Part shown: piece after piece, positions 36,618-56,019 of the stretch
Layout of the letters: each line of letters opens with the position of its first letter
How positions within the stretch are numbered: position 1 is the stretch's first letter
Source of the DNA: Actinomadura graeca
GTDB taxonomy: Bacteria; Actinomycetota; Actinomycetes; Streptosporangiales; Streptosporangiaceae
Assembly: GCF_019175365.1 (NCBI RefSeq)
Contig: NZ_CP059572.1
Coordinates: 5,456,001 to 5,520,000 of the forward strand
Direction of reading: 5' to 3'
DNA length: 64,000 nucleotides
Translations under genes and position numbers: made by a program
The notes under the pieces: generated by a model
Seen by the model: the letters and a program-made list of their open reading frames with translations, nothing else
What the model was told of the DNA's origin: nothing
Database searches by the model: none

Positions 36618-36821
36618 GACGCCCGGAGGGCCGGGGACGGCGTAAAAGCTCGTCCACATCTTCCCCAACAGCGAGGATGTGAGACAGAATGCGACAACCG
36701 CCGCCTCCGGCCCCGTCCGAGCGCAACGGCCTCCGCCGCAGAAGCGCGCAGCAAATCAAAGGGCCGGACCGACCGGTCACACAACACCAGCCACCACCCC
36801 AGCCACCGACGACCTGAAACG

Positions 36822-36965
36822 TTGCGATCGCGTGCGAAGCCAGGTGCGAGCGAAGCGAGAACCTGATCGCGCAGCGAGCCCTCCAGGGCGAGTCGAAGCG
36901 ATGCAGCGATCGCCGTAGTGCCCGCCGAAGGAAGGCGCGCCAGCGCCTGACGCCAAGGGCACTAC
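36822..36965 (-). repeat. Dispersed structured intergenic element, copy A
   Basis: Read on the minus strand from 36965, GTAGTGCCC (36965-36957) pairs with GGGCACTAC (36923-36915). Inside lies a hairpin AGGCGC-TGGC-GCGCCT (36948-36933), joined by the linkers TTGGCGTC and TCCTTCGGC. About 90 nt of GCGATCGC-rich sequence follow. Copy B at 55822-55963 aligns over the whole length with compensatory stem changes. Confidence 0.85.
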
Positions 36966-36982
36966 AGTCGACACAGTTCGCT

Positions 36983-37288: not shown

Positions 37289-37663
37289 GTGCCCACGATC
37301 CAGCAGCTGGTCCGCAAGGGCCGCCAGGACAAGGTGACCAAGAACAAGACGCCCGCGCTGAAGGAGAGCCCCCAGCGGCGGGGTGTCTGCACGCGCGTCT
37401 ACACGACGACGCCCAAGAAGCCGAACTCCGCGCTTCGCAAGGTCGCCCGTGTCCGGCTGACCAGCGGGATCGAGGTCACGGCCTACATCCCCGGCGTCGG
37501 TCACAACCTGCAGGAGCACTCGATCGTGCTCGTGCGAGGCGGACGTGTGAAGGACCTCCCGGGTGTGCGGTACAAGATCATCCGCGGGTCCCTCGACACC
37601 CAGGGCGTCCGCAACCGCAAGCAGGCGCGTAGCAAGTACGGCGCCAAGAAGGAGAAGAGCTGA
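37289..37663 (+). CDS. rpsL: 30S ribosomal protein S12
   Basis: 124 residues. Start at GTG 37289 ([12 protein letters not shown]) by family fit and ACGGAGA upstream; the frame is open further 5'. The streptomycin sites are wild type: T-T-P-K-K-P-N-S-A and G-G-R-V-K-D-L-P-G, predicting sensitivity. S12 monitors codon-anticodon pairing in the decoding centre. The stop overlaps rpsG by one base. Confidence 0.97.
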
Positions 37664-54994: not shown

Positions 54995-55810
54995 CTACTC
55001 GACGTCCATCAGCGGGCGGTAGTTGCCCGTGGGCACGAAATGGGTGGTGGCCGTGCCGTCGTCGCCCACGAGGTGGACGGCGAACCCGGCGGGCTCCCCG
55101 GTCACCGCGGCGCGGCCGGGACGGGTGAGGTCGAGGAACAACTGGCGGTAGGTGCTGGGGCACGTCGTGCTGACCCTGCCCGCCACCTGCCCGACCGCCC
55201 CGCGGTGCACGTGCCCGCTGATGATCCGGACGACCTGCTCGTGCCGGGCGATGACCGCGGCGAACCCGGCGGGGTCGACGAAGCGCATGTCGTCGATGAA
55301 GCGGATGCCGATGGGGAACGGCGGATGGTGGGTGGCGACGACCGTGGGGACCCCCGGCGCGGCGCCGAGCGTCCTGTCCAGCCAGGCGAGCCGGTCCTCG
55401 CTCATGTGGCCGTGCGGATGGCCGTCCACGGTCGTGTCGCAGCAGACGAGCCGTATCCCGGCGACGTCCGCCGCGTACTGGATGGGCGCCTGGGGGCCGC
55501 TGCCGGTGCCCGCGAGCGACGGGTGGCCGGCGAACGCCTCGCGGAGGGCGTCGCGGTCGTCGTGGTTGCCGGGCATGGGGAACACGGTCATCGGCAGGGG
55601 CGACAGCAGCGCGTGCAGCCGGGCGTACTCGGCGGGCCGGCCGCCGTCGGCGAGATCGCCGGTGAGCACCACGGCGTCCGGCCGCGCGGGCAGCGTCAGC
55701 AGGCTCGACACGGCCGCCCGGAGGGCCCGCACCGGCCCCGAGCCGTCGTCGACCTCGCCGTCGCGTCCGGCCGCCAGATGGATGTCGCTCAACTGGGCGA
55801 TGATCGGCAT
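54995..55810 (-). CDS. Calcineurin-like phosphodiesterase, CpdA-like
   Basis: 271 residues. Metallophosphoesterase motifs in order: L-S-D-I-H, L-T-G-D-L-A-D, P-G-N-H-D, T-H-H-P-P-F and S-G-H-V-H-R. The D-G-H-P-H-G-H-M segment is typical of class III cyclic-nucleotide phosphodiesterases (CpdA/Rv0805 group). It probably hydrolyses cyclic nucleotides or other phosphodiesters with two metals. AAGGAG lies 5 nt before the ATG. Copy B of the structured element begins 12 nt upstream of the start on the other strand. Confidence 0.9.
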   Translation of the reverse strand: MPIIAQLSDIHLAAGRDGEVDDGSGPVRALRAAVSSLLTLPARPDAVVLTGDLADGGRPAEYARLHALLSPLPMTVFPMPGNHDDRDALREAFAGHPSLAGTGSGPQAPIQYAADVAGIRLVCCDTTVDGHPHGHMSEDRLAWLDRTLGAAPGVPTVVATHHPPFPIGIRFIDDMRFVDPAGFAAVIARHEQVVRIISGHVHRGAVGQVAGRVSTTCPSTYRQLFLDLTRPGRAAVTGEPAGFAVHLVGDDGTATTHFVPTGNYRPLMDVE

Positions 55811-55821
55811 GCGTGCTCCTT

Positions 55822-55963
55822 GCGGTGCCCTTGGCGTCGGGCGCTGGGGCGCCCTCCTTCGGCGGACACCGCGTGCGGTCGCCGCATCGCCCCGACCCGC
55901 CCTGGGGCTCGCTGCGCGATCGGGGCCCCGCTAGCTCGGACCCGCCTTCGGACGCGATCGCGA
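55822..55963 (+). repeat. Dispersed structured intergenic element, copy B
   Basis: GCGGTGCCC (55822-55830) pairs with GGACACCGC (55864-55872, one mismatch). Inside is GGGCGC-TGGG-GCGCCC (55839-55854), joined by TTGGCGTC and TCCTTCGGC linkers identical to copy A. The GCGATCGC-rich remainder aligns with copy A to 55963, with a one-base gap here and there. Confidence 0.85.
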
Positions 55964-56019
55964 GGCTGAGGACGGCGATGGTTCGGGAATGGGTGCCCCA
56001 GCTAGATGATCACTGGGTC

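Follow-up and report, generated by a model that had tools for sequence, protein, structure and literature searches.

The 64,000-nucleotide stretch of Actinomadura graeca DNA analysed here (the window) carries two copies of a repeat that is probably a genus-restricted, non-autonomous mobile DNA element of about 190 bp, resembling REP and CIR repeats and served by a trans-acting enzyme that recognises its folded single strand. This reading draws on the dispersal of the copies, their presence or absence at orthologous sites, ends that are not inverted repeats, pairing maintained while the sequence changes, and a preference for gene 3′ ends.

Two copies of a folded repeat in the window

The copies were found at 36822-36965 on the minus strand (copy A) and 55822-55963 on the plus strand (copy B), where a preliminary description had placed them. 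Both begin with the common 51-nt layout proposed there, which was followed base by base: copy A reads GTAGTGCCC-TTGGCGTC-AGGCGC-TGGC-GCGCCT-TCCTTCGGC-GGGCACTAC and copy B reads GCGGTGCCC-TTGGCGTC-GGGCGC-TGGG-GCGCCC-TCCTTCGGC-GGACACCGC, the linkers TTGGCGTC and TCCTTCGGC being identical. Three stem pairs are altered on both sides between the copies, exactly as had been noted, and the single pair reported lost in copy B is a C.A at outer pair 7. The remainder of the element also proved alignable, as had been judged by eye (83% between copies A and B over positions 4-142). A 33-nt pattern of linkers and inner hairpin, searched with up to 3 mismatches, matched twice in the window and not once in any of 100 shuffles, and chance is therefore excluded for this core. 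The original picture of a pair of elements of about 143 bp was right in that the copies are real, and understated in that the unit measures about 190 bp, contains a second folded module and is present in dozens of genome copies. The parts of the two copies and their neighbouring genes are as follows.

36796..36821, minus strand: 3′ tail of copy A, terminal GGCTGGGGT (downstream profile and sequence)
36822..36914, minus strand: module B of copy A, a four-armed fold with closing stem GCGATCGC/GCGATCGC (alignment, fold and covariation)
36915..36965, minus strand: module A of copy A, a 51-nt hairpin with a 9-bp outer stem, internal loop TTGGCGTC/TCCTTCGGC and 6-bp inner stem (sequence, and covariation in 40 distinct own-genome copies)
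36966..36976, minus strand: AT-rich lead of copy A (CTGTGTCGACT; family consensus CTGTGTTTATT) (flank profile)
37289..37663, plus strand: ribosomal protein S12 gene (PF00164), 324 nt from the 5′ side of copy A
54995..55810, minus strand: calcineurin-like phosphoesterase gene (PF00149), neighbour of copy B
55811..55821, plus strand: lead position of copy B, degenerate, abutting the start codon of the minus-strand phosphoesterase gene (sequence and gene calls)
55822..55872, plus strand: module A of copy B (sequence)
55873..55963, plus strand: module B of copy B (sequence and fold)
55964..55972, plus strand: probable shortened tail of copy B (GGCTGAGGA), from comparison by eye with the tail profile

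Folding-energy z scores of copy A were -2.2 for the element strand and -4.5 for its complement, and those of copy B were +0.7 and 0.0 for the two strands. Since the energy of a single copy is not uniformly striking, the case for a fold rests on covariation instead.

Anatomy of the repeat and its copies in the genome of the window

A BLAST search with copy A returned at least 55 matches with E <= 1 in the genome of the window (G000; 8.98 Mb in three contigs), a lower bound, as scoring covered 40 of the 77 first-look candidates. At least 43 near-full copies were recovered, and 41 of these 43 make up alignment A1, from which L034 (a perfect palindrome) and L020 (a partial hairpin A) were left out. 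The 48 matches of 75 nt or longer occupy 34 sites on the 8.94-Mb contig, none of them outside 1.33-7.88 Mb; the G000 repeats are confined to the central part of the contig. The outer 27% of this contig, with limits chosen post hoc, holds none of the 34 sites, for which a uniform distribution would give a probability of about 2.5e-5.

Flank profiles gave the order of the repeat as an 11-nt AT-rich lead CTGTGTTTATT, hairpin A of about 51 nt (module A), module B of about 92 nt and a tail AACGTTGAGGTCGT...GGCTGAGGT, for a total of about 190 bp. The lead boundary was set where information reached background, beyond position -11, in the profile of 174 non-tandem copies, and the downstream profile placed the tail length at about 26-38 nt. 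The stem of hairpin A is interrupted by an internal loop, and module B consists of the closing stem GCGATCGC/GCGATCGC plus three further arms. Tandem arrays repeat the lead-A-B unit. By inspection, some copies are hairpin A alone, as though two GCGATCGC had recombined, and module B stands alone at one G019 site. Because near-identical copies at distant sites are few (best pair 98.6%), no burst of transposition was seen.

The lead was also considered as a target sequence and rejected, as the inverted copy at the purH site of G066 has its own lead and the sister genome G028 has other sequence there.

Covariation in both modules and at an orthologous site

Pairing was kept in both modules to an extent that shuffled alignments did not reproduce. 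For the 30 pairs of module B (alignment A2, 44 non-redundant sequences), 98.1% of cells were paired versus 92.8% in shuffles (sd 0.4), cells changed on both sides numbered 67 versus 20.7, and the covariation score was 0.153 versus 0.061; slid controls reached at most 36.5% paired. One measure showed the opposite trend, with 17 further standard pair types versus 19.1 in shuffles. For module A, the 40 distinct own-genome copies were 95.6% paired versus 84.2% shuffled, with 63 both-sided cells versus 17.7 and a covariation score of 0.376 versus 0.162.

The same behaviour was found at a single orthologous site, beside a gene identified by Pfam as purH. The stems at the purH end in five species are TGAGTTTCC/GGAAACTCG, TGAGTTCCC/GGGAACTCG, TGAGCGCCC/GGGCGCTCG, GAGTTTTCC/GGAAAACTC and TAGGCACCC/GGGCGCTTG. 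The last of these is imperfect, its pairing being incomplete, and the other four show compensation in place. The five species form one clade in the purH gene tree (support 0.99).

Stem changes were mostly compensated, not random, and the preliminary view that selection acts on a folded form holds insofar as many copies preserve pairing in both modules while sequence changes, to a degree beyond the shuffle and slide controls. It went too far in treating selection as the sole source of such covariation, since template switching between hairpin arms can make or mend a stem in a single mutation, a process documented for RNA genes in the relevant passages of PMC8794818.

Two further regularities were seen in the folds. 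The halves of the hairpin A internal loop co-vary without Watson-Crick pairing, TTGG occurring mostly with CGGC, and TCGG with CAAC or CCAC. Module B arm P5 mostly retains C-TTC-G, which is C-GAA-G on the other strand; C-GAA-G is a very stable DNA mini-hairpin motif.

Hairpin A is exchangeable

One and the same module B follows versions of hairpin A that are unrelated in sequence. For 205 of the 218 distinct B copies with flanks, a hairpin finder placed the end of a hairpin no more than 4 nt from B; 170 of these hairpins were 47-56 nt long, the others being of odd length and possibly misplaced. By motif, the 218 divide into T(T/C)GGCG (111), TCCATCGTC (52), GAGCTGCGCT or CGCTTGT (13), TGCGGCGTC (7), perfect arms of at least 20 bp (7), other (15) and none found (13), although several of these last 13 contain an imperfect hairpin by eye. 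The kinds of hairpin A look species-specific. A wider scan found eight perfect palindromes, with arms of 21-24 bp and unrelated sequence, that replace hairpin A directly before B. Three cases could be traced by eye (a perfect one in L221, and near-perfect ones in G011 and G077 at the site of copy 6523928), and in these the arms match the 5′ linker and not the 3′ linker.

The palindromes that replace hairpin A are plausibly explained by template switching, and template switching may contribute to all the covariation. Carried to its limit, this would make the repeats self-maintaining palindromes whose stems are rewritten by DNA-polymerase template switching (quasipalindrome correction), with no selection needed. 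The eight palindromes, the one-sided match of the arms in the three traceable cases and the documentation of the process for RNA genes (in passages of PMC8794818) speak for such an account. We nevertheless consider it distinctly unlikely as a full explanation: most copies keep a non-complementary internal loop (the T(T/C)GGCG and TCCATCGTC classes above), a feature that correction without selection would remove; short stems and conserved unpaired stretches persist in module B; and dispersal is left unexplained.

Placement at gene 3′ ends

Among the loci of the matches listed, 77 single-copy sites comprised 26 convergent, 43 codirectional and 8 divergent spacers, whereas element-free spacers of positive length from the same loci (n = 519) comprised 72, 325 and 122, respectively. 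Where the element 5′ end faced a gene 3′ end (52 sites), a stop codon lay no more than 20 nt away at 30, versus 7 of 43 for the element 3′ end; gene calls in these counts came from a crude codon model, element ends were fixed offsets and orthologous sites were unmerged. The associated P values, near 5e-5, are optimistic because orthologous sites were not merged. The copies show a preference for convergent spacers, and their lead abuts stop codons. By eye, genes at several loci share their last codons with the lead or hairpin or take their stop from it, and some terminate early inside the lead. At purH, the last codons at the overlap are TTC TTC CAC TGA versus TTT TTT CAT TGA. Passages of PMC3733652 describe the same placement for REPs, which lie close behind stop codons, at gene 3′ ends and in convergent spacers.

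Three loci showed other relations to genes, each judged by eye. At L018 (G000:C1:3204970-3205108), an antisense copy lies inside one open frame joining a polymerase-like and a flippase-like protein, where translation through the repeat may yield a protein linker. At L025 (G000:C1:7594859-7595064), a protease-like gene seems to enter the repeat, gaining a repeat-coded C-terminus. A small gene is present in three relatives (L121-L123) at the 6808483 site, where G000 (L008) has the repeat without such a gene.

Alternatively, the 5′ end could point towards stop codons because the element has a function at mRNA 3′ ends. The element would then be a structured RNA whose pairing is kept by selection on the RNA itself, either a small RNA or the 3′ part of the upstream mRNA, where it would serve as a terminator, stabiliser or processing site. 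Strong covariation with conserved internal-loop sequences fits this account, as do the abutment on stop codons, the overlaps with last codons and, for all pairs of module B on the element strand, an excess of G.T over A.C (109 versus 33) that suits a sense RNA, although 64 of the 109 come from one badly aligned pair. Without that doubtful pair, module B gives 45 G.T versus 32 A.C (P 0.17), no clear bias, and hairpin A shows A.C 60 versus G.T 20 on the element strand, the opposite of what sense-RNA folding predicts; in all these mismatch counts related copies are not independent. The two orientations in codirectional spacers are balanced (26 versus 17 at single-copy sites, 34 versus 35 with array members included, 12 versus 11 in the genome of the window), as expected for DNA and not for part of a sense-strand RNA. 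Terminator-like hairpins persist beyond the element at purH in several genomes by eye, and the repeat is patchily present within one genus. The balanced orientation and the A.C excess of hairpin A, which module B lacks, weaken an RNA function, and we regard it as rather unlikely, though the most serious of the alternatives weighed here.

The mismatches were also tried as a guide to the strand of action and set aside: module A points to the other strand, and module B favours the element strand if the one doubtful pair is counted and neither strand if it is not.

Apparent restriction to one genus and polymorphic sites

A consensus search found the repeat in 25 of 36 genus genomes, including that of the window, and not in the remaining 11; outside the genus, the same search gave one weak match (E 6e-4) among 23 genomes. 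With the module-B model, strict filters and 21 candidates scored each, at least 7 of 200 family genomes and at least 1 of 68 genera were positive. Among the matches listed from a pattern scan of species genomes, all 117 stretches were from Actinomadura (116) or Spirillospora albida (1). As far as seen, the repeat is restricted to one genus. Carriage by phages, plasmids or viruses was considered and rejected, as none of the plasmids, phages or viral contigs searched gave a match.

Within the genus, site occupancy varied. Of 30 phosphoesterase spacers corresponding to the copy B site, 5 were filled (G000, G015, G019, G077 and G011), 1 had a degenerate match (G062), 21 were empty and 3 were unreadable. 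When the upstream gene ends of 11 own-genome sites were followed by eye into G019, G077 and G011, the element was absent from at least one relative at 7. At the purH 3′ end, a module-B match was present in 8 of 60 genus genomes, and the filled genomes fall in four separate places of the purH gene tree. Losses may also have occurred, since the G001 purH site seems by eye to keep a tail remnant. The filled and empty sites compared were too diverged to yield an exact junction or a target duplication.

Search for a mover and for described families

No Rfam family matched the repeat at gathering score; an insignificant sub-threshold match (E 0.69) overlaps the tail of copy A. Elsewhere in the window, Rfam matched only tRNA and the L17 ribosomal protein leader (RF03132, 60277-60337, plus strand), the latter in the ribosomal gene cluster. 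The open-access literature searched gave no description of this repeat. The earlier remark that the element was not recognised as a described family stands at the level of Rfam gathering scores; to call it not a described kind would be too strong, since it behaves like known REP repeats in its placement. Within the searches made it is unreported, and it is an unusually modular member of the REP/CIR/RPE-like repeats.

For loci among the matches listed, the 455 ORFs lying no more than 2.5 kb from a copy were clustered, and the 22 largest clusters, examined by eye, showed neither an autonomous copy nor a linked transposase. This result, together with the empty plasmid, phage and viral searches, left no recognised match to a transposon end or MITE family, which the preliminary description had named as evidence against its proposal. 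A classical MITE, made of DDE insertion-sequence ends and marked by terminal inverted repeats and a target duplication, would suit the size and intergenic dispersal of the repeat. We hold it to be highly improbable, because the ends CTGTGTTTATT and GGCTGAGGT are not mutual inverted repeats by inspection and no transposase was found among the neighbouring proteins inspected.

Mobilisation by a RAYT/IS200 enzyme was rejected. PF01797 (Y1; E <= 1e-5) was absent from G000 (96.9% complete) and not associated with carriage: 5 of the 25 carriers, 4 of the 11 non-carriers and 5 of 14 control genomes were positive. Mobilisation by a reverse transcriptase was rejected likewise: PF00078 was absent from G000, and 8 of the 25 carriers and 3 of the 11 non-carriers (one of these below the cut-off) gave a match. 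That neither family tracks the carriers counts against the mobile reading. A Y2 transposase search gave no matches anywhere, its controls included.

The relevant passages of PMC3733652 and PMC8266576 distinguish two kinds of REP, one GTAG-tagged and associated with RAYT/TnpA-REP, the other CGTC-tagged and without a known transposase. The Actinomadura repeat shares with REPs a dispersed location at gene 3′ ends. No GTAG lies next to its hairpin, the lead consensus being CTGTGTTTATT and the stem starting with GC; no more than 4 of the 41 aligned copies have GTAG at the start of the paired stem itself. With no GTAG tag and no Y1 gene in G000, filing the element as a RAYT-type REP fails on the two defining features tested. 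The ends of CGTC-tagged REPs (unpaired CGTC, an 8-9 bp stem and a CCA tail) are not in the element either. Inside hairpin A, GGCGTC and TCC flank the inner stem only, an apparent resemblance to the CGTC REP tags.

Proposed mechanism and comparison with known systems

In the mobile-element reading that we favour, an enzyme supplied in trans would recognise the folded single strand, through hairpin A with its internal loop, module B or both, and the same enzyme would copy or move that strand into gene ends. Pairing would be retained because copies unable to fold are not propagated, and insertions elsewhere would be removed through harm to promoters. As no Y1 (RAYT/IS200) transposase was found in G000, the mover may have disappeared, may belong to another type of enzyme or may be supplied by the host. 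E. coli TnpA-REP, as described in passages of PMC8266576, acts on single-stranded folded REP and requires a bulge in the stem, to which the internal loop of hairpin A is a parallel. A more specific version, which we advance as speculative and think unlikely as it stands, is a shape-coded element in which module B would be a fixed mobility core and hairpin A a rewritable cassette. Its 3′ arm would be re-copied from the 5′ arm, possibly at insertion, and target bases (even a host stop codon) could in this way be taken up into a paired stem. An enzyme not belonging to the known Y1 class would move the whole as folded single-stranded DNA.

The 218 distinct module-B copies with flanks make this a well-sampled family in which structure outlives sequence, also at an orthologous site. 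It makes testable whether covariation in bacterial repeats comes from recognition of a fold or from polymerase template switching, and the covariation of such repeats could be mistaken for a new class of non-coding RNA.

Compared with REPs, as treated in the relevant passages of PMC3733652 and PMC8266576, the likeness lies in dispersed palindromic repeats at gene 3′ ends and in convergent spacers, ends that can supply stop codons, stems with or without a bulge, and dimers or tandems. The Actinomadura repeat differs in its length of about 190 bp (REPs, 20-50 nt), its two modules, its lack of a GTAG or CGTC terminal tag and the absence of a Y1 match in the genome of the window. With CGTC REPs it shares one puzzle, that of dispersed hairpin repeats with no visible transposase. 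In IS200/IS605-type single-strand transposons, hairpin ends are likewise recognised as folded single strands (passages of PMC8266576), but no Y1 gene was found in G000. Rickettsia palindromic elements (RPE; 100-150 bp), from what PMC2229807 and PMC3733652 say of them in part, are also palindromic, genus-restricted and sometimes read through in proteins, yet they have terminal inverted repeats and a single long stem-loop where the Actinomadura repeat has two modules. The Caulobacter/Brucella intergenic repeat (CIR), as portrayed in passages of PMC2229807, is similarly intergenic and without terminal inverted repeats, and has two folded arms with a linker and a palindromic methylation-type motif. 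Compared by description only, CIR belongs to another taxon and carries its GANTC in a loop, whereas GCGATCGC here forms the closing stem.
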